Positions 46,358-64,000 of a stretch of 64,000 nucleotides of DNA are shown one piece after another; the first letter of the stretch is position 1, and the number at the start of each line of letters is the position of its first letter. Origin of the DNA: Halorubrum sodomense. Lineage in GTDB: Archaea > Halobacteriota > Halobacteria > Halobacteriales > Haloferacaceae. The notes beneath the pieces are model-generated. The model was not told where the DNA came from. It made no database searches and saw only the letters and a program-made list of their open reading frames with translations. Location of the stretch: NCBI RefSeq assembly GCF_900111935.1, contig NZ_FOYN01000003.1:186001-250000 (forward strand), written 5' to 3'. The position numbers were made by a program, and so were the translations under genes.

Positions 46358-46408
46358 TTGACATCTTCCCACGACTGAAGCCGTGGGATTCCTCCCGTGG
46401 GATATTGG
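46358..46408 (-). mobile_element. Right end of the tnpB-2 element (hairpin, likely omega-RNA 3' part)
   Basis: A perfect hairpin CCCACG/CGTGGG with loop ACTGAAGC (46368-46387) is followed on the minus strand by GGGAAGATGTCAAGAC. It is preceded by GGGAGGAATCCCACGG. This is the standard IS605-type right end. It lies between the tnpB-2 stop and the broken thioredoxin-like gene. The guide part of the RNA would read into 46354 and below. Confidence 0.7.
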
Positions 46409-47752
<1,344 letters not shown>

Positions 47753-47794
47753 GACGATGATTTATTATACTTTTAGTCTTAAAGTCTTTTTGTC
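47753..47794. promoter_or_regulatory. Overlapping divergent promoters of tnpB-2 and the RHH-like gene
   Basis: Only 42 bp separate the two starts. TTTATTATAC (47761-47770) lies about 29 nt before the ATG at 47795. On the other strand CTTTAAGA (about 47779-47786) lies about 29 nt before the GTG of tnpB-2. A direct repeat AGTCTT (47775-47780, 47783-47788) between them could be a repressor half-site pair. Confidence 0.5.
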
Positions 47795-47926
47795 ATGCGC
47801 CCGAACGTAGATATTTCACACACGCTTGGTGGCCGAATCAAAGACTACGCTGAAGCGAACAATCTGGGACTCTCGGAGGCATACACCGAAGTGCTAGAGG
47901 CAGGATTGGATGAATTGGAAAATTGA
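47795..47926 (+). CDS. Small ribbon-helix-helix-like protein divergent from tnpB-2
   Basis: This 43-residue protein starts MRPNVDISHTLGGRIKDYAE and ends LEAGLDELEN. A short beta strand (NVDISHTL) followed by two helices (GRIKDYAEANN and SEAYTEVLEAGLDEL) is the CopG/MetJ-type RHH pattern. It has an independent TATA box at leaderless spacing. Its position suggests autoregulation and repression of tnpB-2. The gap 47927-48150 is AT-rich IS flank and holds no gene I can support. Confidence 0.65.
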   Translation: MRPNVDISHTLGGRIKDYAEANNLGLSEAYTEVLEAGLDELEN

Positions 47927-48150
47927 GTATCCAGTAGTGTCTTAGTGTTTATATATTAACAGTTATTGGATTTACTCACAGCTGAACTCACAAGTCCTAT
48001 TATTACTGATATTTAGGGCCACAAACCTCGGTAGCCTCGTTGCTGAAGAACATGTTACGAGCCAGCAAAATCCGACTCATGCGGTCGCACCCGTCCTTAA
48101 TCTCCACATACCGGCAAAGACTAAAGGCAAATACGCCGGTAGCTGCCGGT

Positions 48151-48456
48151 ATGTCGAGGCAGATGAACACCGTCGTCGCAGGTGACGAGTCGGGGATCCA
48201 CGACGAGCCGCACATTCGGGACCGACGAATCACCGTGCGCCACGTCCACGCGCTGGTGGAAGAGCGCGGGCTCGACGCACAGACGGTTGCGGATCGGTTC
48301 GACCTCACTGCCGCGGAGGTCTACCACGCGCTGGCATACTATCACGATCACCCAGAAGAGATGCGGGATGTCGAGGAACGTAGTCAAGATCTCCACGACG
48401 CCGCAGCAAACGATCCGGACATCGTCACCGGTCCCGAGGATCTGTCGGACCCGTGA
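48151..48456 (+). CDS. DUF433 domain protein (antitoxin-like), partner absent
   Basis: This 101-residue protein has the DUF433 winged-helix pattern: PHIRDRRITVRHVHALVEERGLDAQTVADRFDLTAAEVYHALAYYHDHPEEMRDVEER. DUF433 proteins are usually antitoxins paired with a downstream DUF5615 PIN-like toxin. Here the 60 bp downstream hold no toxin start and the next gene is the convergent DUF368 gene. ATG 48151 is used because upstream in-frame sequence lacks conservation. It is probably an orphan after IS-related rearrangement. Confidence 0.75.
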   Translation: MSRQMNTVVAGDESGIHDEPHIRDRRITVRHVHALVEERGLDAQTVADRFDLTAAEVYHALAYYHDHPEEMRDVEERSQDLHDAAANDPDIVTGPEDLSDP

Positions 48457-48517
48457 CTTGGACACCTCGGTATGACTGTTCTAAAGTCCTCCTTGCGTTC
48501 CCGTGACTGTACTCCAG

Positions 48518-49462
<945 letters not shown>

Positions 49463-49530: not shown

Positions 49531-52500
49531 CTAGGCCGTGGCCGCGTCGGCCGCGGTCGCGGTCGTCGCCGTCGTCGCGGCGGGGTCGACGCCGGTCAGC
49601 GAGCCCGCGTCGGTCGAGTTCGTCGAGTCGCCGCCGTCGCTGCTACCGCCGCCGACGGGACACGCGGGGTCGCCGCTCGGACAGTCGACGATCCGCTCTT
49701 CGAGTTCGACCGTCGCGGCCGAATCGTCGACGCCGACGACCTGTGCCTCGGTGACCTCGACCTGCCCGAACCGCTCGGTGGTGTACAGGTCGTCGCCGGT
49801 CGTCTGTGCGGTGGTGATGTTGTACGGCCCGGTGGCGCGGACGCTCGTGTTCGTGTACCCGTTCTCCGGCCCGAACTCGTCGTAGCCCGTCGTCGAGTAC
49901 GGGAGCGTGAACTCGAAGTTCCCGTTCTCGTCGGCGGTCGCGTACTGCGTGTACTCGAACGTCTGCCCGTCCGGCTTCCGGAGTTCGACGGTCGCTTTGA
50001 CCTCCTGGCCGGGCGCCGCGCCCGACCCGTCGACGGTCGCGCCCGGCACGCGTTCGAACGTCTTGACGAAGTCGTCGGTGAACGCCCCGAACAGCGACTC
50101 GCCGAACGTCGCCCGGAGGTCGACGCCGAACCGCTGGGCGAGGATCTGTGCCTGCTGCGCGTACGGCGACCGCCCCGGAGCCCGCGTGGCGTGAACTAAC
50201 CGGTAGTGCTCGAGCGCGTCGAGCCGCTCGGACGGAACGCCCATCACGCCGCCGACCTGCGCCGATCCGTCCGCCTCCACGTACGACCGCGCCGCGGAGA
50301 GGTTATCGAACCGACGGACCACCTGCCCCTCGCTCGGGAGGACCTTGATCTGGACCCGCTCGCCAGACGTCGTCTGCGCGGTCTGCGACTCCCAGTCCAG
50401 CACGACCGGCCGCGGCTCGACCGCGCTCCCGTAGTGTTGGTAGAGCCGGATCATCTGGCTCTCGTGGTAGCGCTGGGTCCGCGTCTGGAGTGCGGGGCGA
50501 AGGCCGCCCTGCTGGCCGTTCTGTCCCTGAACGCGCTGGTAGAGCAGCTCGTTGAAGTCGCGCACCGTCTCGTTGCCGCTGTAGAAGGTGACCGGCGCGT
50601 TGAACTTGGAGTTCGGCGAGGCCATCTGCCAGTCGACCATCACGTAGCGGGTCCGGTTGCCCTCGGTGCTCTGGCTCGCGAGCACCTCGGCCGCTTCCGC
50701 CTCGCTCGGTGCGAGGAGGTAGTCCGCCGCCGCGCCCGCGTTCTGCTGGAACGGGTTCGCGTTCGGGATGCGCTCGGCGCGCGTGGTGATCCAGTGGCCG
50801 TAGTCCCACCATGACATGACGCCATAGGCGCCCTCCGGATACTCGAAGTCGCCGTCGGCCGGTCGCTCGTAGGTACCGTACAGCTCCATCGGGTTGTCCG
50901 CGCCCTCGAGCTCGCCCGGTTCCGGGGTGTTGTCGTTCATCCACTGGAGGCTCTCGTCCCACTGGACGACGCTGCCCGGCTGGCTGGAGTTGCCCGCCTG
51001 CCAGACCGGGGTCGCGACGCCGACGAGCGGGACGAGGAGGACGGCGAGCACCGCGACCACCGTCAGCACCTGCCAGCCCTCGATGTCGCGGACCGCGTCG
51101 AGCGAGGTGAGATCCAGGGCGTCGAGCGCGACCTGGAGGAAGTACGCCGTTCCGACCGCGACGACGACGGCGAGGTAGTAGTTGAAGCGGACCTGCGTGA
51201 ACGCCGCGCTACCGATGAACGCCGCCCACACGACGAAGTACAGCTCTTGGCTGTCGTACTCGACGAGCAGCGTCGCGCCGACGAGGAAGGCGGCGGCGAT
51301 GAGCAGGCCGATCACCTGCCAGTCGACGCCGACGACGCCGCCGATAGCGTTGTACGCTTGCGGGACCGCGTAGACGGAGCCGACGACCGCGAGCGCGGCC
51401 GGAACGTAGAGGGTGTGGTTGGCGTCGTCGGAGCGGTAGAGGGGACGTGCGAGGATGTAAAGGACCGCGGCGAGCGCGAGGAAGAAGGCGAACCCGTACT
51501 GCGAGAGGACGAAGTTGGAGAACGAGGCGCCTTGGAGGGGGGGTTGCGCCTCGCCGATGGTGCGGGCGCCGGCGCTCGCGGAGAAGGCGACGGTGTTGAG
51601 CAGGCTGTTGACGATCGTCGACCACAGCGACGGGAGCGCGAGCCAGACGACGCCCACCGACGCGAAGATGAGCCCGCCGACGGCCGCCGGGTAGGTGTCC
51701 GTGCCGAGGTCTCGCGCCTCCCACTGCCGGGCGAGCCACGCGAGGAAGACGGCGCCGAGCGCGACGCCGAGCGGCGCGACGATCTGAAGGAAGGAGTACT
51801 CGCTCACGGCGAACCGGAAGGTGTCGAGCGGGATCACCTGCATCAGGCCTGCGACGCTCATCGTGATCGCGCCGGCGAACGCGACCGGCTCGGGACTCTT
51901 CCCGTGGTAGGTGTCGCTCGTGAGCGTGATCGCGAGGAAGATGCCGGTAAAGCCGACCATCAGGGCACCGGGCTGCCACGTCCACATGTAAAGTCCGAGT
52001 GCGACGCCCGCTGCGGCGGCGTACGCGACGGGGCGGCGAAGCGCGTCCCAGTCGCGGTCGACGACGAGCTCCCACACCGGCTTCTCGCGTTCCGCCACGC
52101 CGAGCGCGACGAGGAACGCGAGGACGGCGGTACTCTGGAAGAACACCTCGGCCGCGCTGTGATCGGGAAAGCCGACGAGCGAGTAGCGGAGGAAGGTCCC
52201 CGAGAACAGCGCGAGAGTCGCCGCACCGGCGAGCGCGGGAAGTCGGTCGGTGAACCGCCGCGCGATGAAGTACGTCGGAATCGCGACGAGCGCGCCGGTG
52301 ATCGGCGCCATCACGAGCAGGACTTCTTCCGTACTCCCCATGATCGGGCGGGCGATCCAGACCCCGACGGCCATGATGTAATCCCAGAGGGTGCCGAACT
52401 GGCCGGCGTTCGTTCCGAACGGGAAGCCGGTCCAGACGTCGTACGGGAGGGTGTTCGGCCAGTTTTTGAGGAGGTAGCTCGTCGTGCGGAAGTGATACCA

Positions 52501-52677
52501 CGCGTCGTTGCCGCGGAAGTACACCTCGCCGTTCACGATGAAGTTCCCGTACGAGCGCAGCCGCGTCCACAGCATGAACGCGAACACCCCGAGGAGGACG
52601 GGAACGTGGTACCACCGCGCGAGGAGATCGGACGGGGACGAGTCCGATTCGTCCGGCGGATCGTTCGAATCGCTCAT
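49531..52677 (-). CDS. aglB: Oligosaccharyltransferase AglB
   Basis: This 1048-residue STT3-family enzyme transfers the lipid-linked glycan to Asn in N-glycosylation sequons outside the cell. The first acidic motif is in YFRGNDAWYHFRTTSYLLKN (about residues 53-72). The second is around RYSLVGFPDHSAAEVFF. About 13 hydrophobic segments reach to roughly residue 560. The soluble domain has the signature SWWDYGHWITTRAERIPNAN (about 618-637). The C-terminal beta domain ends in a Thr/Ala low-complexity tail. TATA-like GCCTTATGCG lies about 28 nt before the ATG. Confidence 0.96.
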   Translation of the reverse strand: MSDSNDPPDESDSSPSDLLARWYHVPVLLGVFAFMLWTRLRSYGNFIVNGEVYFRGNDAWYHFRTTSYLLKNWPNTLPYDVWTGFPFGTNAGQFGTLWDYIMAVGVWIARPIMGSTEEVLLVMAPITGALVAIPTYFIARRFTDRLPALAGAATLALFSGTFLRYSLVGFPDHSAAEVFFQSTAVLAFLVALGVAEREKPVWELVVDRDWDALRRPVAYAAAAGVALGLYMWTWQPGALMVGFTGIFLAITLTSDTYHGKSPEPVAFAGAITMSVAGLMQVIPLDTFRFAVSEYSFLQIVAPLGVALGAVFLAWLARQWEARDLGTDTYPAAVGGLIFASVGVVWLALPSLWSTIVNSLLNTVAFSASAGARTIGEAQPPLQGASFSNFVLSQYGFAFFLALAAVLYILARPLYRSDDANHTLYVPAALAVVGSVYAVPQAYNAIGGVVGVDWQVIGLLIAAAFLVGATLLVEYDSQELYFVVWAAFIGSAAFTQVRFNYYLAVVVAVGTAYFLQVALDALDLTSLDAVRDIEGWQVLTVVAVLAVLLVPLVGVATPVWQAGNSSQPGSVVQWDESLQWMNDNTPEPGELEGADNPMELYGTYERPADGDFEYPEGAYGVMSWWDYGHWITTRAERIPNANPFQQNAGAAADYLLAPSEAEAAEVLASQSTEGNRTRYVMVDWQMASPNSKFNAPVTFYSGNETVRDFNELLYQRVQGQNGQQGGLRPALQTRTQRYHESQMIRLYQHYGSAVEPRPVVLDWESQTAQTTSGERVQIKVLPSEGQVVRRFDNLSAARSYVEADGSAQVGGVMGVPSERLDALEHYRLVHATRAPGRSPYAQQAQILAQRFGVDLRATFGESLFGAFTDDFVKTFERVPGATVDGSGAAPGQEVKATVELRKPDGQTFEYTQYATADENGNFEFTLPYSTTGYDEFGPENGYTNTSVRATGPYNITTAQTTGDDLYTTERFGQVEVTEAQVVGVDDSAATVELEERIVDCPSGDPACPVGGGSSDGGDSTNSTDAGSLTGVDPAATTATTATAADAATA

Positions 52678-52820: not shown

Positions 52821-53744
52821 GTGAAGGTCTCGGTCGTCGTCTGTACGTACACGCTGGACATGTACGAACACTTCCAGGAGGCAGCCGACAGCGTCCTTGC
52901 GCAGACGTACGACGACGTCGAACTTGTTGTTGTCGTCGACGGGACGCCTGAGGTGTACGAGCGCGTCGTTGAGGACTACGGCGACCGTGGGGACACGGTG
53001 ATCGCGTGTAACGACGAGAACGTGGGACTGCTGGCCAGCCGGAACCGCGGCGCGGAGCTGGCCTCCGGCGATGTGGTGGCGTTCATTGACGACGACGCGG
53101 TAGCAGACGAGACGTGGGCCGAGCGGTTGGTCCGTGCCTACGAGGAGGAGGACGCGATTGCGGCCGGCGGGAAGATGACACCCGAGTGGATCGCTGGGAA
53201 GCCCTCGTTTCTCCCCGAGGAGTTTTACTGGCTGGTCGGCGTAACTCATCGCGGATTCGCGCACGGCCCGGGTGAGGTGCGGAACACCTTCGGCTCGAAC
53301 ATCTCGTTTCGAGCGGACGTGTTCGAGGAGTTGGGTGGGTTCGACATCGACATCGGCGGACGGAAGGGCGACAAAAATCTCCAGGGCGGGGAGACGGAGC
53401 TGTGTGCCCGGATGCGGGAAGAGTACGGGCAAGGGGTGTGGTACGATCCAGAGGCCGAGGTGGCTCACAAGGTGTTCGAGTACCGGACCGAGTTCCGGTG
53501 GCTGGTCGATCGGGCGTTCTGGCAGGGATACTCGAAGCGAGCAATGGAGTCGTTCGTTGAAAATGAGGGTAAAGAGGAAAGCGGGTTCCTCTGGATGCTT
53601 TTGCTGGAATCTGCTCCAAAACGTCTCAACAGAGCGGTTAGGTCATTCCAAGTGAATTACTTGTTACAATTTTTCGTGTTGTGTATATTGACTATATCTG
53701 TGGGGACAGGGTACGTCTTCGCAATGTTTCGCTATCAGTCGTAA
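52821..53744 (+). CDS. aglG: GT2 glycosyltransferase, AglG-like
   Basis: The 307-residue protein starts at GTG 52821. The GT-A domain has SVVVCTYTLDMYEHFQEA, DDVELVVVVDGTPE, NVGLLASRNRGAELASGDVVAFIDDDAVAD (DxD) and NTFGSNISFRADVFEELGGFD. It ends with one hydrophobic helix (LLQFFVLCILTISVGTGYVF). AglG of Haloferax volcanii adds a hexuronic acid to the dolichol-linked glycan next to aglB, and order and similarity suggest the same job. The last 60 codons are visibly AT-rich, unlike the first 245. Confidence 0.85.
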   Translation: MKVSVVVCTYTLDMYEHFQEAADSVLAQTYDDVELVVVVDGTPEVYERVVEDYGDRGDTVIACNDENVGLLASRNRGAELASGDVVAFIDDDAVADETWAERLVRAYEEEDAIAAGGKMTPEWIAGKPSFLPEEFYWLVGVTHRGFAHGPGEVRNTFGSNISFRADVFEELGGFDIDIGGRKGDKNLQGGETELCARMREEYGQGVWYDPEAEVAHKVFEYRTEFRWLVDRAFWQGYSKRAMESFVENEGKEESGFLWMLLLESAPKRLNRAVRSFQVNYLLQFFVLCILTISVGTGYVFAMFRYQS

Positions 53745-53856
53745 TTGACAGTTAACAAACCAACCAATTTTACTGATGTTATAGTTTAATAGTTGATATT
53801 TACTGAATCGATACTCTGTAGTACTTCAGGTTAATCTGGTGCCGGCCCCGGAATTA

Positions 53857-55671
53857 CTAGCGTGATTTGGATACTAGCGTTTCCACAAGTCTGGCAACAC
53901 GATTAGCTGCGCCGCCATCCTCGTTTAATGCGTATTCTCTCCCAAATCCGGGTTGTTTCTCAACATAACGTCTTATACAATTTGGATCGTTTTTCATCTT
54001 CTCAATACACTGACGAGCCTCAATTTGATTCGTGACTTCAGTGAAACCATTCTCTTCTGAAAACTCGTTGATTGGGGGCTTTTCAGAGGAGATGTCGAGA
54101 ATAATAACCGGACGGCTCAGTAAACTTGCCTCAAGTACTACTGTAGACCGGAGTGCCAGAAGCACATCCGACGCAAACAGCAAATCGTGGATATCGTCGC
54201 TTTCGGAAACATGAACGTTCGACATGTCTGTAGCGGCTTCCTTGTGGAGTTCAGTGTCTTCTCTCGGATGCGGTCGAAGAATAAGCTCTACATCTGGCAG
54301 CTCATTAACCGCATCCATAGCCGTTTGGATGAGATCCGAACGTATCGTATCATCGAAAGGTTGTGAAGCGAGTAACACAGTAAACGCTTGACGATCAACA
54401 GGGATAGAAAGTCGCTCACGCACCTGTGATCGATCCTTTGCGGAATAACGGGCTAGGTGATCGAACTGTGGCGCACCGGTGACCTCAGTTCTTTCGGGTT
54501 CCACCCCCTTCGCTTGCATAACCTTTTGCCACCGTTCACCCCAAACCGCAATTTGGTCGGAAACAGGAACGTACCTCCGAGATGGAAGATCGACACCATG
54601 TTGGATTAATAGTGATGGAATTCCCTCATCCGCCGCAACCGTTGCTACTGCTCGTGTTGGTAGCGGACCATCATTTTTCAGCAAAACCATTGCTGGTTGC
54701 TCTGTTCTGAACATATTTTGCATCATATGGACATACCGGACAACCCTTGGATATTGAAGAGTACTATACAACCACCCGCGGGATTGAAGCGCAGGTGTGA
54801 GGTCGACCTCACAAAGTTTGTGCTCTCTCTGATTAGAGAATGGCTGATCAGAGTTGGGGGCTTTCGCTAATTGTGTCAATGTATTTATCTCATTTTTATA
54901 CGACGCGAACGAGGCATACTGCTCAAGCGAAACAACTGGAACATCTGAATTTGACAAAACTGTTGAAATCTTTTTTCCGGTGTTCAAAAACCCATGTGAA
55001 TGTGTGACTACGGTGAGATCTACACAATCGTCAAGTGCTTCGACAACAGGCCCAACAACATTAATATTATTTTTTGTGAATATAAATAAAACAACATCCG
55101 AGTCATGCGGGATCTCGTCACCTCGTGTTCGTGAAATTATTTCGGACCCCCAGTCAAGTGGTCGCAGAATACCTGGACCTACTAATCTGAAGAGTTTATT
55201 TTTGATGTGGCGCTTCGTGATCTGTTTTGTATAAACATCGAGCTGTATGTTCTCCGTAGTAGCTACTGCTTCTGGGATTCCAGGGATGATCTGTCCGGAC
55301 CCAAGCGGCAACCAGTGATACACGGGTTCCGGGTCGGTGAATACCTCAACCTCTGATGGCTGCTCTGCTCGGAGAATGTTCTTGATTGTTTTGGTTTGCC
55401 TGAGAAGTTCGTGCCCAAATAGATCAATAAACGTATTTTGAACAAGCGGACCGATGTCAATCCCAGCGTAAAAAAACTGGCCTGTAAGCCAGCCTCGAAG
55501 CGTATCAAAATCTTCGTCTGTCGCAATTTCATCGGACTGATAGTCCGAATCCATTACTACGTCCTTTGTATCAACGTTGTTGTACGCTTCCTCGTTAAAC
55601 GTGACAACCTGTGACGCCTCTTTCAACCGCGTCAGTGGAATATCGGGATGATCAGCTAAAATGAGTTTCAT
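53857..55671 (-). CDS. Large GT-B-like surface-glycan transferase (CDP-glycerol/NulO-transferase type)
   Basis: The 604-residue soluble protein has an N-terminal half with no recognised motif. The C-terminal half resembles GT-B enzymes of the CDP-glycerol glycerophosphotransferase/sialyltransferase-like kind: EGIPSLLIQHGVDLPSRRYVPVSDQIAVWGERW, VTGAPQFDHLARY, VLLASQPFDDTI, LRPHPREDTEL, DDIHDLLFASDVLLALRSTVVLEASLLSRPVIILD. The adjacent divergent neuCAB genes make a CMP-nonulosonate transferase an attractive reading, but that is inference. Confidence 0.65.
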   Translation of the reverse strand: MKLILADHPDIPLTRLKEASQVVTFNEEAYNNVDTKDVVMDSDYQSDEIATDEDFDTLRGWLTGQFFYAGIDIGPLVQNTFIDLFGHELLRQTKTIKNILRAEQPSEVEVFTDPEPVYHWLPLGSGQIIPGIPEAVATTENIQLDVYTKQITKRHIKNKLFRLVGPGILRPLDWGSEIISRTRGDEIPHDSDVVLFIFTKNNINVVGPVVEALDDCVDLTVVTHSHGFLNTGKKISTVLSNSDVPVVSLEQYASFASYKNEINTLTQLAKAPNSDQPFSNQREHKLCEVDLTPALQSRGWLYSTLQYPRVVRYVHMMQNMFRTEQPAMVLLKNDGPLPTRAVATVAADEGIPSLLIQHGVDLPSRRYVPVSDQIAVWGERWQKVMQAKGVEPERTEVTGAPQFDHLARYSAKDRSQVRERLSIPVDRQAFTVLLASQPFDDTIRSDLIQTAMDAVNELPDVELILRPHPREDTELHKEAATDMSNVHVSESDDIHDLLFASDVLLALRSTVVLEASLLSRPVIILDISSEKPPINEFSEENGFTEVTNQIEARQCIEKMKNDPNCIRRYVEKQPGFGREYALNEDGGAANRVARLVETLVSKSR

Positions 55672-55723
55672 TCTGAGAGAACACTAGTGTCGTACCGAGC
55701 TGATGTGTACAGAGGTTCGAAGC

Positions 55724-55731
55724 GTATTTAG
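55724..55731 (+). promoter_or_regulatory. TATA box of the neuCAB operon
   Basis: GTATTTAG is centred about 28 nt before ATG 55755. It favours this start over the in-frame ATG at 55734. Confidence 0.5.
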
Positions 55732-55754
55732 GGATGACGGTGCTGTCCAGCGGT

Positions 55755-56924
55755 ATGTCAACTCAAGTTGCGATTTGTCTGACTAGCAGAGGAAATTATG
55801 CCCGAACAGGTACGCTTCTTCATGCGTTGGATGATGATCCAGACACCGAATTAGACATCATCGTTGCCGGCGCATCGATGATCAGAAAATATGGTACTCT
55901 ATCTGAATTATTGCGTGAGGATGGGCTAGAGATAGAACGTGAGCTATACAACGTGTTGGAGGGGGGTACACCTGTTGCTTCTGCAAAAACAACGGGTCTT
56001 GGAATGATCGAATTTACTTCCGTGCTTAATGAACTTGACCCGGATGGAGTAATTACCATTGCGGATCGATATGAAACGATGTCTGTTACTCTCGCTGCGT
56101 CGTATTTGAACATTCCAGTTATTCATACACAAGGTGGCGAAATCACTGGTTCCATTGATGAAAAGGTACGCCACGCGACGACGAAGATGGCAGACTACCA
56201 TTTTGTATCTACAGAAAAAAGTCTAGATGTTGTCAAAGGGCTGGGTGAAGAGGGTGATCGCGTGTTCCTCACTGGTTGTCCCTCAATCGACCTTGTCGAA
56301 GACATCGATCAAAACGGGAATGATCAATACGATCCACAGGAGGACTACGCAGGCGTAGGGGCCCAGATCGACATTGATGAAGATTATCTCGTTGTCCAGT
56401 ACCATCCAGTCGCAACAGAGTATATGAGCGAATATGACCGAACGTGGGAACTAATCAACGCTGTGGATGATCTCAACGTACAAGCATTTTGGTTCTGGCC
56501 CAACATGGATGCTGGTACGAACCAGGTCTCAAAAGCGATTCGTGAATACCGAGATCAGCGCTCACCAGACGACGTCCGGTTCTATATCAATATGCACCCA
56601 GATGATTACTTGACGCTCGTGAGCAATTCAGCATGTATGGTAGGGAACTCAAGCGTTGGGATCAGGGAATGCTCATATTTGGGTAAGCCGACGGTGAATA
56701 TTGGAAACCGCCAGCAGATGCGCGAGCGCGGACCCAATGTACTTGACGTTAAATGTGAAACAGAGGACATTAAAGACGGAATAAATCAACAACTCTCTGC
56801 GGGGTCGTTTGAACGATCTACCCTTTATGGAAACGGAAACGCAGGCGAAAAGATGAAACAAATCATTCGCCAAACCGATTTAACGATGAAACAGCCGATG
56901 AAACCAGAACAGTTGGATCTGTAG
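55755..56924 (+). CDS. neuC: UDP-N-acetylglucosamine 2-epimerase, hydrolysing (NeuC/LegG type)
   Basis: The 389-residue GT-B-fold enzyme starts MSTQVAICLTSRGNYARTG. LDPDGVITIADRYETMSVTLAASYLNIPVIHTQGGEITGSIDEKVRHATTKMADYHFVST is the NeuC core (R-x-E and GGE). NMHPDDYLTLVSNSACMVGNSSVGIRECSYLGKPTVNIGNRQ is the nucleotide-binding end. It would release ManNAc, or 2,4-diacetamido-hexose in the legionaminic route, from the UDP-sugar. It is the first gene of a tight neuC-neuA-neuB operon. Confidence 0.9.
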   Translation: MSTQVAICLTSRGNYARTGTLLHALDDDPDTELDIIVAGASMIRKYGTLSELLREDGLEIERELYNVLEGGTPVASAKTTGLGMIEFTSVLNELDPDGVITIADRYETMSVTLAASYLNIPVIHTQGGEITGSIDEKVRHATTKMADYHFVSTEKSLDVVKGLGEEGDRVFLTGCPSIDLVEDIDQNGNDQYDPQEDYAGVGAQIDIDEDYLVVQYHPVATEYMSEYDRTWELINAVDDLNVQAFWFWPNMDAGTNQVSKAIREYRDQRSPDDVRFYINMHPDDYLTLVSNSACMVGNSSVGIRECSYLGKPTVNIGNRQQMRERGPNVLDVKCETEDIKDGINQQLSAGSFERSTLYGNGNAGEKMKQIIRQTDLTMKQPMKPEQLDL

Positions 56925-56925
56925 A

Positions 56926-57621
56926 ATGAGTGATAGAACGTATGCAGCCCTTATTCCTGCGAGGGGAGGATCAAAAGGGATTAAAAAGAAAAATATTGTC
57001 GACGTTGCTGGAAAACCACTCATAGCACATTCCATTGAGGCGGCTCAACAGTCAGATACGATTGACGATGTTGTCGTCAGTACGGACAGTCAGGAGATCG
57101 CTGACGTTGCAGCGGAGTGGGGAGCTTCCGTCCCATATCTCCGTCCGGACAAACTTGCGACTGATGAAGCACCAACTGAACCTGTTATAACACATGCGTT
57201 AGAACATGAGTCTGCCGATGAGTGGACGCATGTTGTCCTGCTTCAGCCGACTTCACCACTCCGAACAGGGAATGATATTGAAAATGCAATTGCCACTTTC
57301 GAACAGTCTAGTGGCACCTCGTTAGTCTCTGTTTTCGAGGACCACAGTTATCGGTGGGAGGAGACTTCCAACGGAGCTATTCGAAAAAATTATCAGGGAG
57401 ATCGAAAGCGCCGGCAGGATAAATCTCCTGAGTATGTAGAAAATGGAGCTATATACATCACAAAGTGCTCAGAGTTCCTGAAAACAGGAGATATTCAAGC
57501 TGGAAAAACCATTTTATACACGATGCCCCAGAAGCGGTCTGTTGACGTTGATACCCACTTCGACCTGTGGCTGGTAAGGAAACTTATTCATCGCCTCAAC
57601 GGTCAAAATGACACAGGATGA
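56926..57621 (+). CDS. neuA: CMP-nonulosonate cytidylyltransferase (NeuA/LegF type)
   Basis: This 231-residue cytidylyltransferase has ALIPARGGSKGIKKKNIVDVAGKPLIAHSIEAA (CTP-binding P-loop-like start), VVVSTDSQEIADVAAEWGA, VVLLQPTSPLRTGNDIENAI and ENGAIYITKCSEFL. DVDTHFDLWLV carries the late metal-binding Asp pair. It activates a nonulosonic acid with CTP. It starts 1 nt after the neuC stop and overlaps neuB by ATGA. Confidence 0.93.
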   Translation: MSDRTYAALIPARGGSKGIKKKNIVDVAGKPLIAHSIEAAQQSDTIDDVVVSTDSQEIADVAAEWGASVPYLRPDKLATDEAPTEPVITHALEHESADEWTHVVLLQPTSPLRTGNDIENAIATFEQSSGTSLVSVFEDHSYRWEETSNGAIRKNYQGDRKRRQDKSPEYVENGAIYITKCSEFLKTGDIQAGKTILYTMPQKRSVDVDTHFDLWLVRKLIHRLNGQNDTG

Positions 57622-58640
57622 GTGACTCCAACTCAATCGAACGAATTTTTGCTGATTCAACTGACCCATATATTATCGCAGAGGCGGGAGTGAACTACCT
57701 CGGACGGATCGATCTTGCGAAAGTATTTATTGAGGAGGCAGCAGCAGCAGGTGCGGATGCGATCAAATTCCAGACTCACATCCCCGAAGCTGAGATGTCG
57801 GCTTCGGGAATGGAAAGTCTGGACATGGGAGACCTCTACGAGCGAATGTCTGAACAGGAATTGAGCATTGAAGATCATAGAACGTTACAGCAATATTGCC
57901 AAAGTAAGGGGATTGATTTTCTGTCAACCCCATTCTCAGCGGAGGCTGTAAAGCTCCTCAAGCAAATAGATGTGCCGGCTTATAAAATTGGATCCGGCGA
58001 AGTAACAAACTATCACATCCTTAGAACTGCGGCAGAAACCGGGAAACCGCTTCTTGTCTCGACAGGCATGCATCCCATGTCTGCCATTGAAGACGCGGCA
58101 GAGTTCATTAGTCAGTACACTGATCGTGTTGCGTTCTTCTATTGTGTATCTGAATATCCTACACCCGTAGAGAACGTTAATTTGGGAGCGTTACAGGAAA
58201 TGAAAGAAGCATTAGACGCACCAATCGGCTTTTCAGACCATACTCAGGGAATTGAGGCGTCAGTAATTGCCCTTGCCCAAGGGGCAGATCTTATTGAAAA
58301 ACACTTTACGATCGATCGCCGTTTGCCCGGCGGAGATCAAGAGGTGTCAATCGAACCAGATGAGTTGGAGGAACTTGTCGAATACGCCGATGTTGTAGCT
58401 AAGACACGTGGGGACCGCGTCCCACCGACCGAAACGGAAGTGGAGATCGCTGAATGGGCAAGACACAGTATTGTTTCAAAAACCGCTATTCCACAGGGCA
58501 CTGAACTAACGGAATCCAATATAACAACGAAGCGGCCAGGTACTGGGATCCCTTCTTCTGAATTTTATAACGTCCTTGGCGAGACAACTTCAACGCGGAT
58601 TGAAGCGGATTGCGTTATCGATTGGACTGATCTTGTATAA
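57618..58640 (+). CDS. neuB: N-acetylneuraminate/nonulosonate synthase (NeuB/LegI type)
   Basis: The 340-residue enzyme condenses phosphoenolpyruvate with an N-acylated hexose. The TIM barrel has YIIAEAGVNYLGRIDLAKVFI, ADAIKFQTHIPEAEMSA, DFLSTPFSAEAVKLL, YKIGSGEVTNYHIL, LLVSTGMHPMSAIEDA, IGFSDHTQGIEASVIA and IEKHFTIDRRLPGGDQEVSIEPDEL. The C-terminal SAF (antifreeze-like) domain from about residue 280 (SIVSKTAIPQGTELTESNITTKRPGTGI) completes the family architecture. Sequence alone does not tell neuraminic from legionaminic product. Confidence 0.94.
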   Translation: MSDSNSIERIFADSTDPYIIAEAGVNYLGRIDLAKVFIEEAAAAGADAIKFQTHIPEAEMSASGMESLDMGDLYERMSEQELSIEDHRTLQQYCQSKGIDFLSTPFSAEAVKLLKQIDVPAYKIGSGEVTNYHILRTAAETGKPLLVSTGMHPMSAIEDAAEFISQYTDRVAFFYCVSEYPTPVENVNLGALQEMKEALDAPIGFSDHTQGIEASVIALAQGADLIEKHFTIDRRLPGGDQEVSIEPDELEELVEYADVVAKTRGDRVPPTETEVEIAEWARHSIVSKTAIPQGTELTESNITTKRPGTGIPSSEFYNVLGETTSTRIEADCVIDWTDLV

Positions 58641-58663
58641 ATTAAGAACCAACAACATACACC

Positions 58664-59575
58664 TTATTTTTCACCGACGTAGCCAAGGTCAGCAAGGCGT
58701 TGTTCCACATCATCTGTAGACTGTTGTGTGTCCCATTTCTTGGGCGAGTATTCATTGGAATCATCACAGTGGTACACGTCCCACGGGACTCGACGGACCT
58801 CCGGAATTGGGGTGCCAACTGGATGGCCCCAGATGCCGTACTCTCCTAGCGCATTTCCGTGATCTGCTGTGATCGCAACTGTTCCATCAATATTCTCTAG
58901 TAGTAGTTCAACATAATCAAATACATATCGTAAATTGTTCCAATATGCTTTCCGAATTTTCTCTATATCCGTTATTTCGCCTAGTTTAATGTTTGTCCAG
59001 ATATCATCGTTCGTGTCTTGGTTCACTCCTCCAAAGGCTGAACGGTCGATATATCCGATGGTATCTTCTTCGGCGATAAACGGATAGTGCGGTTGCATGT
59101 AGTGAAGAATAATGCGATCATGTGCCTGTTCCCGGGCAACACTAATTCCACGGTCCGTAATTGGTTCCGCAGGCACTGTTCCTAACTCATTATCCCATCC
59201 GTATTGCCAAACTTCGTCGAGCAACGCAAACTCTGAAGCACGATATTCTCGAGAAAACGGATTCCCTGTAATATATGCTGTATCTGAATTATCCCTGGAC
59301 CTAAAAGTATTTGCGAGCCACTCAGGGGATGCTCCGCCAACAGACCAAATCGAATCACACTCGCCCACAACCTCTTGGTACATGTCGACCCGGCAAGCGT
59401 CTAAGACAACGAGAACGTCCCACTCTCGGTTGTACACGGACTCTCCGGAAGTGAACGGGGAGGCCGCTCTTGAAATAACGTTATGAGTAAGATCCAACCC
59501 GATTTGTGGGATTGCTCGAACACCAGCTCGAGTGTACCAATTCTGCGACTTCTTGACGAAATCGGATAAAGACAT
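58664..59575 (-). CDS. Sulfatase-like (alkaline phosphatase superfamily) protein
   Basis: In this 303-residue protein YNREWDVLVVLDACRVDMYQEV gives the metal Asp and the nucleophile region (Cys in the DACR context). HYMQPHYPF follows, and VAITADHGNALGEYGIWGHPVG is the late metal-binding DH-G and H site. No signal peptide or transmembrane anchor is clear. Members in haloarchaeal glycan loci may transfer or remove sulfate or phosphate on glycans; the direction here is unknown. It is convergent with neuB. Confidence 0.82.
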   Translation of the reverse strand: MSLSDFVKKSQNWYTRAGVRAIPQIGLDLTHNVISRAASPFTSGESVYNREWDVLVVLDACRVDMYQEVVGECDSIWSVGGASPEWLANTFRSRDNSDTAYITGNPFSREYRASEFALLDEVWQYGWDNELGTVPAEPITDRGISVAREQAHDRIILHYMQPHYPFIAEEDTIGYIDRSAFGGVNQDTNDDIWTNIKLGEITDIEKIRKAYWNNLRYVFDYVELLLENIDGTVAITADHGNALGEYGIWGHPVGTPIPEVRRVPWDVYHCDDSNEYSPKKWDTQQSTDDVEQRLADLGYVGEK

Positions 59576-59647
59576 TCGTAGCCGGAACTTGGTAGAACAC
59601 TCAGAGTTATAACCTCATGGTTAATATGACACACCACACATTGTAAA

Positions 59648-60625
59648 ATGCCAGAGATTAGTGTCATCCTTCCCACGTATAATGAAGCAGATGTTATACA
59701 GGATGCTTTAGATGGGCTTGTAGACCAGACCTTTTGTGACTTTGAAGTAGTGGTCGTGGACGATGGATCTACTGACGGTACTGTTGATATTGTTACTTCA
59801 GAAGATCGGCTTGATATCACATTAGTTGAAAGGAACAAATCTGGACTCCCGTCTGCTTTGAACCGTGGTATTCGTGAGGCAGACGGAGAGTATATTGCTC
59901 GTCAAGACGCAGATGATCGATCACATCCGAAGCGTTTCGAGCGACAAATTGAGTTCCTAAGGGAGAACAAATCTACAGCTCTTTTAGGTACGGGCGCAAT
60001 ATTGGAGTACGCTGATGGACGACGTTCTCGGCGCCACGTATTAGAGTCCGTAACTCGCGATCAATTACTGACCGGGAATCGGTTTATCCACGGTTCTGTC
60101 CTTATGCGACGACGTGTCGTAGAGCGTGTTGGTGGATATGATGAGGATTTTCAATATACTGAAGATTACGATCTCTGGTTACGAATTGTTGAGAATCATT
60201 CTACTAAGAATATCAATGAGCCACTTTACAGGCTCAGAATGAGAGATTCAAGTATCTATGGATCGGCTCTTAAGGAAGTGCTACTTTACGGTCAATTTGC
60301 CCGCTTACGCGCGACTGGGAAGGTAACTGAGCAACAACAATCTGGATTCAATGGTGGAGATATGGACCGGTTGTATCAACAGTTATCAAAACAACAGAAA
60401 CGTGACATTCACACGAGCTTATTACTTGAGCATATTAGATATGGTAACAACGGTGCCGCTCAGGCAGAAGCAAAGAAGGCAATAAAATTGGGTATTTCAG
60501 CAACAACACTGCTGCTATTGATTATAACATATACACCCAGATCTGCCCAACGGTTTGTACTGTTAATTGGCAGATTTATCAAGAACAGCTGGGTGATGTA
60601 TCAGAATTTCACGGGTACCGGATAA
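59648..60625 (+). CDS. GT2 glycosyltransferase
   Basis: This 325-residue family 2 enzyme has SVILPTYNEADVIQDALDGLVDQTFCDFEVVVVDDGSTDGT and SGLPSALNRGIREADGEYIARQDADDRSHPKRF (DxD as DADD). GTGAILEYADGRRSRR, RFIHGSVLMRRRVVERVGGYDEDFQYTEDYDLWLRI follows, the last containing the catalytic ED. The C-terminus has one hydrophobic segment (ISATTLLLLIITYTP) that may anchor it to the membrane. Donor and acceptor sugars are unknown. Confidence 0.9.
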   Translation: MPEISVILPTYNEADVIQDALDGLVDQTFCDFEVVVVDDGSTDGTVDIVTSEDRLDITLVERNKSGLPSALNRGIREADGEYIARQDADDRSHPKRFERQIEFLRENKSTALLGTGAILEYADGRRSRRHVLESVTRDQLLTGNRFIHGSVLMRRRVVERVGGYDEDFQYTEDYDLWLRIVENHSTKNINEPLYRLRMRDSSIYGSALKEVLLYGQFARLRATGKVTEQQQSGFNGGDMDRLYQQLSKQQKRDIHTSLLLEHIRYGNNGAAQAEAKKAIKLGISATTLLLLIITYTPRSAQRFVLLIGRFIKNSWVMYQNFTGTG

Positions 60626-60738
60626 CATATTCAAGTTGAGCGAATGTTTAGCTTGTTCTTTCACTAATACTTAATCACAAAATTCCTTCCACATCATCCG
60701 TTTCACTTTGTACGACGCTAAGACACCAATCTGAACCC

Positions 60739-61047
60739 ATGGGACTAAATGGACCGGTTAGAGCAGTTCCGTTGTATATGATTCTGAGTAAAATATCATA
60801 CGTGGCTTCCGAAATAGCAGAGAATTATGATCGGAGCATGTGGTGGAGAAATCGGTTCACTGCGCGGGTTATTGCTCCGATACATCAGAAATTCATTTCG
60901 GATTCTAACCGAGATCGAGGTATGGACAGGGAATGTGATAACCCCATTATCCCCAACGAGATGTCACGGACCATAGCAGTACCGAAATGTAGCATGAGGC
61001 GACAAAAAAAGTGGAAAACTCGCTGCTTGGGATATCGAGACGAATGA
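60739..61047 (+). pseudogene. Decayed N-terminal fragment of a sulfatase-like gene
   Basis: The frame starts MGLNGPVRAVPLYMILSKIS and continues IAENYDRSMWWRNRFTARVIAP, resembling the N-terminus of haloarchaeal sulfatase-like proteins. At MDRECDNPIIPNEMSR it corresponds to the REWDVLVVLDACR motif of the gene at 58664-59575, with the metal Asp and nucleophile replaced. The remainder is not conserved and the frame stops at 102 codons. It is probably a remnant of a second sulfatase gene. Confidence 0.4.
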
Positions 61048-61073
61048 CGAAGATTTGTCTACCGCGGGACTAT

Positions 61074-62504
61074 TTAGGATAGTCGAGGCGGAAGATTCGA
61101 CTGTATAACCCGTTGGAAATTTGTTGATATTGTGAACAGAGTGAGGAAGTATATCCCGGCTCCCACTGATATAATAAATAGAACTACTAGAATATTTTGC
61201 ACGCTAATAGTCGATGACTCGATTAGGTGTCGGAGCAAATACACGCAGATTCCCATAACACCGGCTGCGAAAATTTGTTCTCCGATTGCTTTCCATGGGG
61301 TGATGAAACTGAGTTGATTCTGAAGTGTTCGATACGCCAACACCACTCCAAGAGCGGTTGATATGACACTGGCAATTGCCGCACCGACCCATCCAATCCA
61401 GATGATAAGAATAAGATTACCCATTGTATTAGTGAGAATAAACACGAGATTGACCCGGAACGAGAGGTCAGGGCGGTCGATGGCACTCAGTCCACTAAGA
61501 AGTTGACGTTGATAGCCGTGGAGGAGACAGGCGAGGACTAAGAAGCCGAAAACAGAAACGCCTTGTACAAATTCTTGCCCGTAAACTTGTAAGATTCTGT
61601 CACCGAGGACAATGGCACCGACGAAACCTGGAATAATGAGTAGTCCACCAAACGAGAGCCCATCGGTAAGGTATGCTGTAACTTGCTGCCGATCTCCCTT
61701 CGCATCTGATCGGCTAATCTCTGGAAATAAGGCTGATCGAACAGCACCACCAAAGATTGTGAGAAATGTTGCTAAACTCCAAACGACTGAATAAATTCCA
61801 ACCAGCGTGGGAGGGGAAAACACCCCGAGGAGTAATATGTCTACATTACGAAAGGATCGAGATTCCAGTGCCCCAAGCCAAGAGTACTTTGCGTAGTCAT
61901 AGAGGCGTTCGAAATGGGAGCGGTTCGGCAGAGTGGGTGAAGTGGAAATATACAATACCCCTACGATACTGGCTAATATCCAACCGGCTGCTTGGCCGAT
62001 AAACATGCCTGACAGTTCGAAACCGACAATTACTAGTCCAATTTGGACAGCAGCCCGGGATCCGGCTTGAAATGGCTCAAGAATACCGGAGATATGAACC
62101 ATTTGGTTACCTTCAAGCAGAGATATGATCAATGAATTCAGGAGCTTAGCACACAAAAGTAGAACGACGAAGACTGTAACTGGGCGTCCAACGTATGATT
62201 CTACGAACCCATCAAGGAGAAGCACTGCTACTGAAATCACCACAGCAAACAGGATTATTGTAATCGTTCCCGCGGTGGCGTATTCTGAGATATCTTCACC
62301 TTCGCTAATCCGTTTTCTGACCGCGCTAGAGACGCCGAGATCGCCAGTGAGTTTGAGCCAGGAAACAAGAGCAATTGTAGTTGCAAAGTACCCGATGACC
62401 TCTGCCCCAAGTTCACGTGCAAAATACAACGTCGCGATGAACCCGAGTGCTGAACTCAGCAACTTCGATACGAAAACAATAATAGAGGTTTGTCCGATTC
62501 TCAT
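61074..62504 (-). CDS. Wzx-like oligosaccharide flippase (MATE/MVF superfamily)
   Basis: This 476-residue protein has about 14 hydrophobic segments in the pattern of the polysaccharide-biosynthesis flippase family. TLYFARELGAEVIGYFATTIALVSWLKLTGDLGVSSAVRKRISEGED lies near the start, YDYAKYSWLGALESRSFRNVDILLLGVF in the middle, and GDRILQVYGQEFVQGVSVF and TALGVVLAYRTLQNQLSFITPW later. It would flip the dolichol-linked glycan outward for AglB; AglR of Haloferax volcanii has a comparable role. Confidence 0.88.
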   Translation of the reverse strand: MRIGQTSIIVFVSKLLSSALGFIATLYFARELGAEVIGYFATTIALVSWLKLTGDLGVSSAVRKRISEGEDISEYATAGTITIILFAVVISVAVLLLDGFVESYVGRPVTVFVVLLLCAKLLNSLIISLLEGNQMVHISGILEPFQAGSRAAVQIGLVIVGFELSGMFIGQAAGWILASIVGVLYISTSPTLPNRSHFERLYDYAKYSWLGALESRSFRNVDILLLGVFSPPTLVGIYSVVWSLATFLTIFGGAVRSALFPEISRSDAKGDRQQVTAYLTDGLSFGGLLIIPGFVGAIVLGDRILQVYGQEFVQGVSVFGFLVLACLLHGYQRQLLSGLSAIDRPDLSFRVNLVFILTNTMGNLILIIWIGWVGAAIASVISTALGVVLAYRTLQNQLSFITPWKAIGEQIFAAGVMGICVYLLRHLIESSTISVQNILVVLFIISVGAGIYFLTLFTISTNFQRVIQSNLPPRLS

Positions 62505-62665
62505 ACCTGGGATAGATGTAGTGGGCGTTGTGTGATTATCTGGAATCCGTCAACATATAATTCCACTCACTACGATCGGTGTTTCCGGAAAGGCAACGCT
62601 AGAAAGGCGAAACTACAGATCTACTCATTCTAACACTATCCAACTTATGAGCTTAATGACTTTGA

Positions 62666-63688
62666 CTACTTGATGCTGTGGATTAGCAATTGCTGAACTG
62701 ACTTATCTATATTCTCCTGTGGAACCCAGTTTAATCGATTTGACGCCGTAGAAATATCAACCTCAAACTTTTCGACCATCGTCTCACCACCCCGCGGATT
62801 CTCTACCAACTCTACATCAACGTTGATGCCACGCTCCTTTGACGCCACTTCCCGTACAGAGTCTGCAACCTCCATCACGCTCATATCCTCGTCACTCGCA
62901 ATCTCGTACGTCTCCGTCCCAGTCTCTCCCCGCTCCAACTGCGCCACCAACCGCTCTGCGCTCCGCACGTACGCCCGCGCCACGTCTTTCACGTGGACGA
63001 AGTTGCGCGCCTGCGTTCCGGGCTCGTACACCGTCAGCGTCTCGCCAGCAAGCGCCCGGTTCACGAAGAAGTTGATCACGGTCGGCTTCCCCACCTCCGT
63101 CCCGTCGACGACGTGCTCACCGTAAAGATTCGACTTCAGGAAGAGATGCGCCGGGAACGCGCCGTCCGCGAACGCCTCGATCGACCGCTCGCCGAGCAGC
63201 TTCGTCCGTCCGTACCAGTTGAGCGGATCCCGCGGCTGGTCGGCTGTGATCGGGAACTCCTCTGGATCGCCCAACACAGCCATGCTGAACGGGAACGCGA
63301 GCGCGGCACCCGTCTTCCGACAGAACCACGCCACGTTGTTCGTCCCGGTGACGTTCACCTCGTACGCGAGGTCCGGATTCTCGTCGCAGTCGTCGACGCC
63401 GCTTATCGCCGCGAGGTGACACACCACGTCCGCGCCCGTAAGCGCGTCTTCCAGCCGGTCGCGGTTTCGGATGTCGACGTGCTTGATGTCGACGTCGCCG
63501 ATCGAATCCACCTGCCCGCGGTACTGGTTGTCGATCGCGATGAGCTCCCAGTCGGGATACGCCTCCTGGAACTCCACGACCACGCGACTGCCGATGTAGC
63601 CGGCCGCGCCCGTGACCGCGATCGTCGGCGTCTCAATCGCTTTGCCGTTGCTCTCTTCGTCTATCTCGGTGTCTGTCGTCTCGGTCAT
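62666..63688 (-). CDS. NAD-dependent sugar epimerase/dehydratase (extended SDR)
   Basis: The 340-residue protein has an acidic N-terminal stretch, then TIAVTGAAGYIGSRVVVEF (TGxxGxxG), VDIRNRDRLEDALTGADVVCHLAAISGVDD, FPFSMAVLGD (Ser), NWYGRTKLLGE (YxxxK) and QARNFVHVKDVARAYVRSAE. It would act on a nucleotide sugar (4-epimerase or 4,6-dehydratase type). The last 70 codons (62666 to about 62890) are AT-rich while the rest is GC-rich, marking one edge of the cassette. It overlaps the upstream epimerase gene by ATGA. Confidence 0.88.
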   Translation of the reverse strand: MTETTDTEIDEESNGKAIETPTIAVTGAAGYIGSRVVVEFQEAYPDWELIAIDNQYRGQVDSIGDVDIKHVDIRNRDRLEDALTGADVVCHLAAISGVDDCDENPDLAYEVNVTGTNNVAWFCRKTGAALAFPFSMAVLGDPEEFPITADQPRDPLNWYGRTKLLGERSIEAFADGAFPAHLFLKSNLYGEHVVDGTEVGKPTVINFFVNRALAGETLTVYEPGTQARNFVHVKDVARAYVRSAERLVAQLERGETGTETYEIASDEDMSVMEVADSVREVASKERGINVDVELVENPRGGETMVEKFEVDISTASNRLNWVPQENIDKSVQQLLIHSIK

Positions 63689-64000
63689 GCTTGGGTCGCC
63701 TCCGTGCCGGTCAGTTCGCTCGCGATGTCGCGGATCCCCTCGCGCAGCGTCCACTCCGTCTCGAAGCCCGTCTCGGCCAAGCGGTCGAAGTTCACGTGAT
63801 ACGAGGGGCCGGGCTGTTCGTCCTCCAGGTACGTCACGTCCAGATCCCGATCAAGCTCCTCGCGGACGATCTCCGCGATCTCCGCGATCCGGTAGTTCCC
63901 CTCGTTCGAGCCGACGTTGTACACGCGCCGGGGCCACGCCTCAGGATCCAACGCAGCGTTGAGATACGCCCGCGCCGCGTCGCGCACGTGGATGAACGGC
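63685..64000 (-). CDS. NAD-dependent sugar epimerase, C-terminal part (N-terminus outside window)
   Basis: The frame enters from the right edge as PFIHVRDAARAYLNAAL and continues YNVGSNEGNYRIAEIAEIVREEL, ending PGPSYHVNFDRLAETGFETEWTLREGIRDIA. This is the C-terminal end of an extended SDR sugar epimerase/dehydratase like its downstream partner. About 104 codons are in the window. Its TGA overlaps the partner's ATG, so two related SDR enzymes are translated together, perhaps acting in sequence on one nucleotide sugar. Confidence 0.85.
   Translation of the reverse strand, partial: PFIHVRDAARAYLNAALDPEAWPRRVYNVGSNEGNYRIAEIAEIVREELDRDLDVTYLEDEQPGPSYHVNFDRLAETGFETEWTLREGIRDIASELTGTEATQA

Follow-up and report, generated by a model that had tools for sequence, protein, structure and literature searches.

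The stretch of Halorubrum sodomense DNA analysed here (64,000 nucleotides; hereafter the window) holds, next to aglB, an AT-rich block of glycan genes whose two ends fall inside genes, aglG on the left and an SDR epimerase gene on the right. Why should a compositional block begin and end within coding sequence? The original prediction was that a variable glycan cassette is exchanged here by homologous recombination in conserved flanking genes. Our comparison supports this idea, through conserved flanks, different interiors and a conflict between the trees of the AglG tail and the flanks. We conclude that the locus is very probably a replacement island with multiple alleles, serving the distal portion of the N-linked glycan that AglB attaches.

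We compared the locus among nine Halorubrum species (G000, Hrr. salsamenti, Hrr. californiense, Hrr. ezzemoulense, Hrr. coriense, Hrr. distributum, Hrr. xinjiangense and two further species), with one genome per species. All nine share a left flank of polyprenyl-phosphate transporter, aglB and aglG core, and a right flank of two SDR genes, a sulfoquinovose synthase-like gene and TrmB; between these flanks lie roughly 9-16 kb of glycan genes that differ among the species. Thus the expected pattern of conserved flanks, unrelated interiors and breakpoints near 53,560 and 62,890 was found, and the same gene content with the same composition step in every genome was not. The interiors examined consist of glycan genes by family assignment, different in content and equivalent in surface-glycan function. 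Within a fixed scaffold (transporter, aglB and aglG core on one side; epimerase core, second SDR gene, sulfoquinovose synthase-like gene and TrmB on the other) sit alternative sets of genes for glycosyltransferases, sugar modification and flippases.

Table 1. Features of the aglB locus and its glycan cassette (window coordinates)
Feature	Coordinates	Strand	Evidence and remarks
Polyprenyl-phosphate transporter-like gene, left flank	48518..49462	-	PF04018, Pfam 201 bits; upstream of aglB, syntenic across species
aglB oligosaccharyltransferase, left flank	49531..52677	-	TIGR04154 908 bits; 79-90% nucleotide identity across species
aglG conserved core	52821..53549	+	Codons 1 to ~243; predicted GT-A catalytic domain ends at residue 238 (AF2 model)
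Left junction	53549..53593	.	Identity changepoint, all 31 different-cassette pairs; GC changepoint 53,528
aglG variable tail	53562..53744	+	Codons 248-307; helix 253-275 and membrane helix 278-306 (both predicted); moves with cassette
Glyphos_transf/TIGR04396-like protein, candidate nonulosonate transferase	53857..55671	-	PF04464 3.3e-12; TIGR04396 90 bits, below cut-off
NeuC-type hydrolysing UDP-GlcNAc 2-epimerase	55734..56924	+	TIGR03568 342 bits, over cut-off
NeuA/PseF-type CMP-nonulosonate cytidylyltransferase	56926..57621	+	PF02348; TIGR03584 160 bits, below cut-off
NeuB-type nonulosonate synthase with SAF domain	57618..58640	+	PF03102 257 bits; TIGR03569 340 bits, below cut-off
Sulfatase-superfamily protein	58664..59575	-	PF00884 27 bits; 11-member cluster, relatives recur in several cassettes
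Family 2 glycosyltransferase	59648..60625	+	PF00535 115 bits
Wzx/MurJ-type flippase of cassette	61074..62504	-	PF01943, PF03023
SDR epimerase, right flank	62666..63691	-	PF01370 141 bits; conserved core, divergent C-terminal part
Right junction, two tiers (62,736-62,756; 62,847-62,876)	62736..62876	.	Homology loss inside epimerase 3' end

The cassette in the window carries the nonulosonate pathway genes for NeuC, NeuB and NeuA contiguously, NeuC being assigned over its cut-off and NeuB and NeuA by Pfam domain, below their equivalog cut-offs; its outer sugar is probably a nonulosonic acid. Genes of the NeuA/B/C type also lie near aglB in the N-glycosylation and legionaminic acid cluster of Halorubrum sp. 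PV6 (PMC6137143). That cluster, however, has LegB, LegC and LegH, whereas in the genome of the window no LegB match exceeds the family cut-off (best 197 bits vs 475); we therefore rejected legionaminic acid, and the sugar may be another nonulosonic acid.

The left end of the block is the sharper of the two. The gene that it interrupts (52,821-53,744, + strand) matches NF041394 at full length (residues 1-304; 515.6 bits vs a cut-off of 440) and is the only gene of the genome over that cut-off; by this equivalog its product belongs to the AglG family (glucosyl-dolichyl-P glucuronosyltransferase), with glucuronic acid transfer to glucosyl-dolichyl phosphate as the predicted activity. GC falls abruptly from about 0.63 to 0.41, with the maximum-likelihood changepoint at 53,528 (0.646 to 0.455, dLL 64), and GC3 within aglG drops from 82% to 53% at codon ~240. 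DNA homology with seven other species stops at 53,551-53,570. In all 31 different-cassette pairs, aglG identity has a changepoint at 53,549-53,593 (each dLL at least 53), whereas the same-type pairs Hrr. distributum/Hrr. ezzemoulense and G025/Hrr. californiense show little or no break (dLL 4-6). The block does start inside aglG, and the predicted coordinate of 53,560 was exact to about 10-30 bp. An AF2 model places a linker (residues 239-251) at this same junction, joining the catalytic domain to the membrane helices of the C-terminus. Because the left homology boundary sits in this predicted interdomain linker, AglG of this lineage is a hybrid of a common catalytic core and a membrane anchor supplied by the cassette.

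The two parts of the gene behave accordingly. The aglG core is 85-90% identical at the nucleotide level between all nine species, whereas tails are 39-54% identical across cassettes and 60-89% within one cassette type, tracking that type (permutation p=0.0002); no dependence on cassette type was found in the identities of the aglG core, aglB, epimerase core or sulfoquinovose synthase (permutation p 0.21-0.93). Tail GC correlates with cassette GC (r=0.80, p=0.003) and not with core GC. In AU tests the tail rejects {G017,G028} (p-AU 6.7e-5) and groups {G000,G028}, a grouping rejected by aglB (p 1.9e-42), the aglG core (0.0065), the epimerase core (0.0027) and the sulfoquinovose synthase (0.00097). 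In identity, GC and tree alike the tail follows the cassette rather than the flanks, in line with the expectation that the AglG membrane tail is swapped along with it. Closer same-type pairs have tail dN/dS of 0.10-0.13, which indicates purifying selection. We also considered co-adaptation of tail and flippase, and found no support for it: 80% of the tail is common to G025 and Hrr. californiense, yet their flippases come from different clusters.

The right end is more diffuse. The GC step is abrupt here too (0.43 to 0.62), with the maximum-likelihood changepoint at 62,909 (0.463 to 0.675, dLL 93), close to the boundary predicted near 62,890 in the epimerase 3' end. That part of the prediction stood; the loss of homology lies elsewhere, in two tiers, DNA homology being regained at 62,744-62,751 in six of the seven other species and at 62,862 in the seventh. 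The epimerase core is 84-92% identical in nucleotides across species, but 76-78% for Hrr. coriense. The right edge also follows the left-end cassette type less cleanly (permutation p=0.07).

How old are the exchanges? Same-type cassettes equal or exceed the backbone in divergence (for G000 and G028, 47-69% identity at 4-fold sites against 61-65% in the backbone), so the exchange events are old or the donors are unsampled. In this between-species comparison we found no near-identical cassette in two divergent genomes. In a search for a recent donor, relatives of the Glyphos_transf-like protein at E<=1e-60 occurred in 1 of the 148 family genomes drawn, and all plasmid relatives of NeuB were below 60% identity.

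Such deep divergence would also be expected if the cassettes were ancient alleles that balancing selection has maintained through speciation, transfer from one species to another being rare and the flanks being homogenised by ordinary gene conversion. The tails fit this too, since their divergence between types resembles that of AglGs from different genera (mean 37.5%). We nevertheless regard this account as rather unlikely. The sister species G017 and G028 carry different cassette types, each common to another clade, which implies switching or a polymorphism that outlasted their split; and certain segments inside the cassettes point to later sharing among clades (G006.7/G017.7, 79% 4-fold identity against 56-62% in the backbone). 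The two accounts are in any case compatible, as trans-species polymorphism and cassette exchange both require recombination in the flanks.

Homologous recombination predicts that the ancestry signal decays towards the cassette, and such a decay was seen, from one species pair. We used shared diagnostic sites in place of a sliding clade signal, which was noisy alone. Between sister species the fraction of shared sites is 0.54 in aglB but 0/16 over the final 250 bp of aglG core sequence (p=7e-6). On the right side it is 0.35-0.53 in the sulfoquinovose synthase and TrmB and 0.18 in the epimerase segment closest to the cassette (near vs right backbone p=7e-5). Both gradients come from one pair and few sites; aglB is perhaps atypically divergent between these two species, and some distant segments are also low (PopT 0.23, R6 0.24).

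It might be objected that the AglG tail is simply a weakly constrained, fast-evolving membrane segment, and that the junction marks the end of constraint without any exchange. Indeed the tails keep only a sparse pattern (residues E253, P266, T291 and G297 are invariant), and those of G000 and G028 are 63% identical in nucleotides and 56% in amino acids despite their common cassette type. We find this very improbable, since tails of closer same-cassette species are 80-90% identical in amino acids, the GC content of tails agrees with that of their cassettes, and the tree of the tail is in significant conflict with the flank trees. Moreover, AglG is conserved almost uniformly in Natronomonas (core/tail 95/88), in Halovenus (94.7/93.5) and in a second lineage of Halorubrum aglG, which occupies the same aglB locus and is conserved as far as the gene end (tail 70-97% at core 90-98%). 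Uniform conservation through the C-terminus, absent from the lineage of the window, thus characterises these controls. In the second lineage core and tail stay together and the boundary falls just past the stop codon; its tails are about as GC-rich as its cores beside AT-richer cassettes, which rules out a simple composition bias of membrane tails. The two lineages form a natural experiment, with one locus and an exchange boundary either inside the gene or just after it. Insertion of a mobile element or site-specific island into aglG, suggested by the low GC, the sharp edge and a TnpB-like IS605 gene ~6 kb outside the left edge, is hardly credible given that there is no tRNA and no repeat at the two junctions, no integrase or transposase among the scanned cassette proteins and no relative of the neuC protein in IMG/VR, and that the sites hold alternative blocks rather than being empty.

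We therefore return to cassette exchange. On this reading homologous recombination would exchange the cassettes, its crossovers falling within conserved flanking sequence, chiefly in aglG, the epimerase gene and their neighbours. Homology ends at the fixed points 53,560 and ~62,870, and the crossover sites are expected farther out, where the flanks are homologous. The cassettes are internally mosaic, so not every event swaps a whole cassette. Each exchange would alter the outer sugars and retain the invariant early steps (AglG, AglB), and by analogy with O-antigen loci the selective advantage probably lies in evading viruses that need the surface glycan or use it for recognition.

A similar layout is familiar from bacterial O-antigen and capsule loci, in which conserved flanks enclose genes specific to the serotype, a flippase among them, and which are exchanged by recombination. 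Unlike them, the present locus is an archaeal N-glycan locus in which AglB is the transfer enzyme and the junction parts a catalytic domain from its anchor. Replacement flexible genomic islands (Lopez-Perez et al. 2014, PMC4033161), described within species, one archaeon included, from recent identical islands and peaks of synonymous SNPs, resemble it in their same position, conserved boundaries, unrelated surface-glycan interiors and, as proposed here, homologous recombination in the flanks; here too we find one position and conserved flanks across lineages, differing surface-glycan content and phylogenetic conflict between edge and flank. Our comparison differs in being between species, with no recent event seen, and in a left boundary inside a glycosyltransferase, at a domain junction. 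The Haloquadratum walsbyi island GI1 (PMC4535781) is another haloarchaeal surface island diversified through homologous recombination, but an S-layer/cell-wall island. Portions of the work on Haloferax aglB clusters (PMC5867893) describe variable, aglB-anchored N-glycosylation clusters bounded by aglB and aglJ, with cluster type discordant with the rpoB1 phylogeny and inheritance judged mostly vertical within lineages; these portions report neither a fixed intragenic junction nor AglG tail exchange. Replacement islands are thus already known; new is the intragenic, domain-boundary junction in an N-glycan locus.

These observations extend O-antigen-style surface switching to the archaeal AglB locus and describe a glycosyltransferase that has repeatedly received a different membrane anchor, joined on at the border between two domains. 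The locus offers Halorubrum a means of typing akin to serotypes, and it becomes testable whether virus host range and mating preference in haloarchaea can be predicted from the type of N-glycan cassette. More speculatively, and with considerable doubt, AglG of this lineage might be a modular enzyme whose membrane-anchor domain serves as an interchangeable adapter, fitted in every cassette to the transferases that act first; recombination in the linker would then dock one conserved catalytic core onto different downstream glycan pathways. In Hrr. xinjiangense we observed an AglG fused in frame to a GT4 domain; if the adapter reading is true, this fusion would be its extreme form.

Both edges of the window's AT-rich block lie within genes, as the original prediction had it: GC falls from ~0.63 to 0.41 within aglG and recovers within an SDR epimerase gene, from 0.43 to 0.62. 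In the seven species compared, homology to the window stops on the left within aglG, and the left breakpoint, which had been expected near 53560, appears as a pairwise aglG identity changepoint in 31 of 31 pairs of different cassette type (log-likelihood gain at least 53). This break is almost nil (gain 4-6) in the same-type pairs Halorubrum (Hrr.) distributum/ezzemoulense and G025 (a related genome)/Hrr. californiense. The right junction is two-tiered. We infer that the fixed junction is the end of homology, with crossovers expected beyond it, in the homologous DNA.

Coordinates of features, in the window (186,001-250,000 of one contig, in a genome of nine contigs) unless a locus is given
Feature	Coordinates	Strand
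GC changepoint, left	53,528
End of homology, left	53,551-53,570
aglG identity changepoint	53,549-53,593
Right junction, one tier	62,847-62,876
Right junction, other tier	62,736-62,756
GC changepoint, right	62,909
Segment ~5-7 kb left of cassette	46358-48517
IS605 OrfB/TnpB-like gene	46409-47752	-
Rieske protein gene, Hrr. salsamenti	L020:3542-5458
AglG-GT4 fusion, Hrr. xinjiangense	L023:1405-3378

Relatives retrieved with the window's AglG bear the name Halorubrum, which makes the assignment to this genus sound. Homologous loci were taken from genomes of the same genus. Nine species share a left flank (PopT-like transporter gene, aglB, aglG) and a right flank (epimerase, second SDR, sulfoquinovose (SQ) synthase-like gene, TrmB), single flank genes being missing in some where the fetched stretch or contig stops; Hrr. 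coriense is without the second SDR. The interiors, of about 9-16 kb, comprise type A (window and Hrr. salsamenti), type B (G025, Hrr. californiense and the related genome G017), type C (Hrr. ezzemoulense and distributum, with their first three genes in common), type D (Hrr. coriense) and type E (Hrr. xinjiangense); the type E genome G050, whose locus is split over two contigs, gives no interior length. Types A-D contain glycosyltransferases, sulfatase-superfamily or other sugar-modifying genes, and a flippase. Cassettes have a mosaic make-up: the tail and left genes are alike in G025 and Hrr. californiense, and the right parts are unlike. In the related genome G038 (L025/L026) the whole aglG is different (56% at the amino acid level) between conserved aglB and epimerase, and the left junction sits upstream, close to the intergenic region between aglB and aglG. 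The G022 locus (L028) is rearranged, with aglB and the epimerase on the same side of the glycan genes; one TGA was counted in its aglG in the search alignment.

The aglG tail (from codon 248) travels with the cassette. Nucleotide identity in the core (codons 1 to ~243) is 85-90% for all pairs; in the tail it is 39-54% between types and 89, 80, 63 and 60% within types. Permutation of cassette-type labels gave p=0.0002 for this tail, bearing out the proposal that the AglG membrane tail changes with the cassette, a weaker p=0.07 for the epimerase tail, and p=0.21-0.93 for the aglG core, aglB, epimerase core and SQ synthase. G017 and another related genome, G028, are sister species with 100% support in the aglB and SQ synthase trees; the tail tree splits them (p-AU 6.7e-5) and groups G028 with the window's species, a grouping rejected by all four flank data sets. 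The GC content of the tail is correlated with that of the cassette (r=0.80, p=0.003) but not with that of the core. Replacement flexible genomic islands swapped by homologous recombination are established, one archaeon included (PMC4033161, PMC4535781), and aglB clusters are variable in Haloferax (PMC5867893). What appears new is the intragenic junction exchanging the AglG membrane anchor; we found no report of such a fixed junction in the open literature searched.

A possible objection is that AglG tails are inherently hypervariable. This is ruled out by tail conservation in a second aglG lineage of other Halorubrum (core 90-98%, tail 70-97%), in a Natronomonas pair (95 and 88) and in a Halovenus pair (94.7 and 93.5). 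The second lineage lies mostly beside the same PopT-aglB pair; its homology stops in most comparisons between about +910 and +941 relative to the start of aglG, at the stop codon or shortly past it, with a few pairs homologous on to about +2,060, and its tails remain GC-rich next to AT-richer cassettes. Purifying selection acts on the tail in the closer pairs that share a cassette (dN/dS 0.10-0.13, versus 0.07-0.08 in the core). Haloparvum and Halopenitus aglG cores are 86-89% identical to those of Halorubrum, and the tails 23-37%. At these loci (L067, L068) PopT-aglB-aglG is kept, aglB is just 61-62% identical to Halorubrum, and the aglG tails are AT-rich and unrelated.

As a recombination footprint we took the sites at which G017 or G028 differs from the other clade, and measured the share common to both. 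In aglB this share is 0.53-0.54. Along the aglG core it is 0.28 and 0.33 over the first two thirds and 0/16 in the final 250 bp (p=7e-6 against aglB). To the right, the epimerase segment closest to the junction gives 0.18, and SQ synthase and TrmB give 0.35-0.53 (p=7e-5, near junction versus right backbone). This decay towards the cassette, in one sister pair, is suggestive of the trace that flank crossovers would leave; some segments distant from the junctions are also low. At 4-fold sites, same-type cassettes are no closer than the backbone (47-69 versus 61-65 for G028 and the window's genome), so that either the alleles are old or the donors unsampled; sharing across clades looks more recent in a few internal segments.

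An AlphaFold2 model of AglG (mean pLDDT 75.8, 19 sequences, five models uneven) predicts a GT-A-like catalytic domain up to residue 238, residues 239-251 as a low-confidence stretch, and tail helices at 253-275 and 278-306, the last holding the tail's most hydrophobic stretch. The junction codons (about 243-257) lie on and beside the predicted linker 239-251. The AglG of Hrr. xinjiangense carries a GT4 domain as an in-frame fusion (657 aa), possibly giving a two-step enzyme.

The window's cassette encodes a Glyphos_transf-like protein, NeuC-, NeuA- and NeuB-type nonulosonate proteins, a sulfatase-superfamily protein, a GT2 and a flippase. By family assignment it would make a nonulosonic acid, probably also attach it, and export the glycan via its own flippase. 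LegB had no match over the cut-off in the window's genome, so the cassette cannot be filed with the legionaminic pathway of PV6 (PMC6137143), from which it differs in this respect. The segment to the left of the cassette, with its IS605 OrfB/TnpB-like and DUF433 genes, is absent or different in most other Halorubrum species. Beside the epimerase, the type A cassette of Hrr. salsamenti has a gene, absent from that of the window, for a Rieske and metallo-beta-lactamase-fold protein (638 aa), which may be a CMP-sialic acid hydroxylase-like enzyme.
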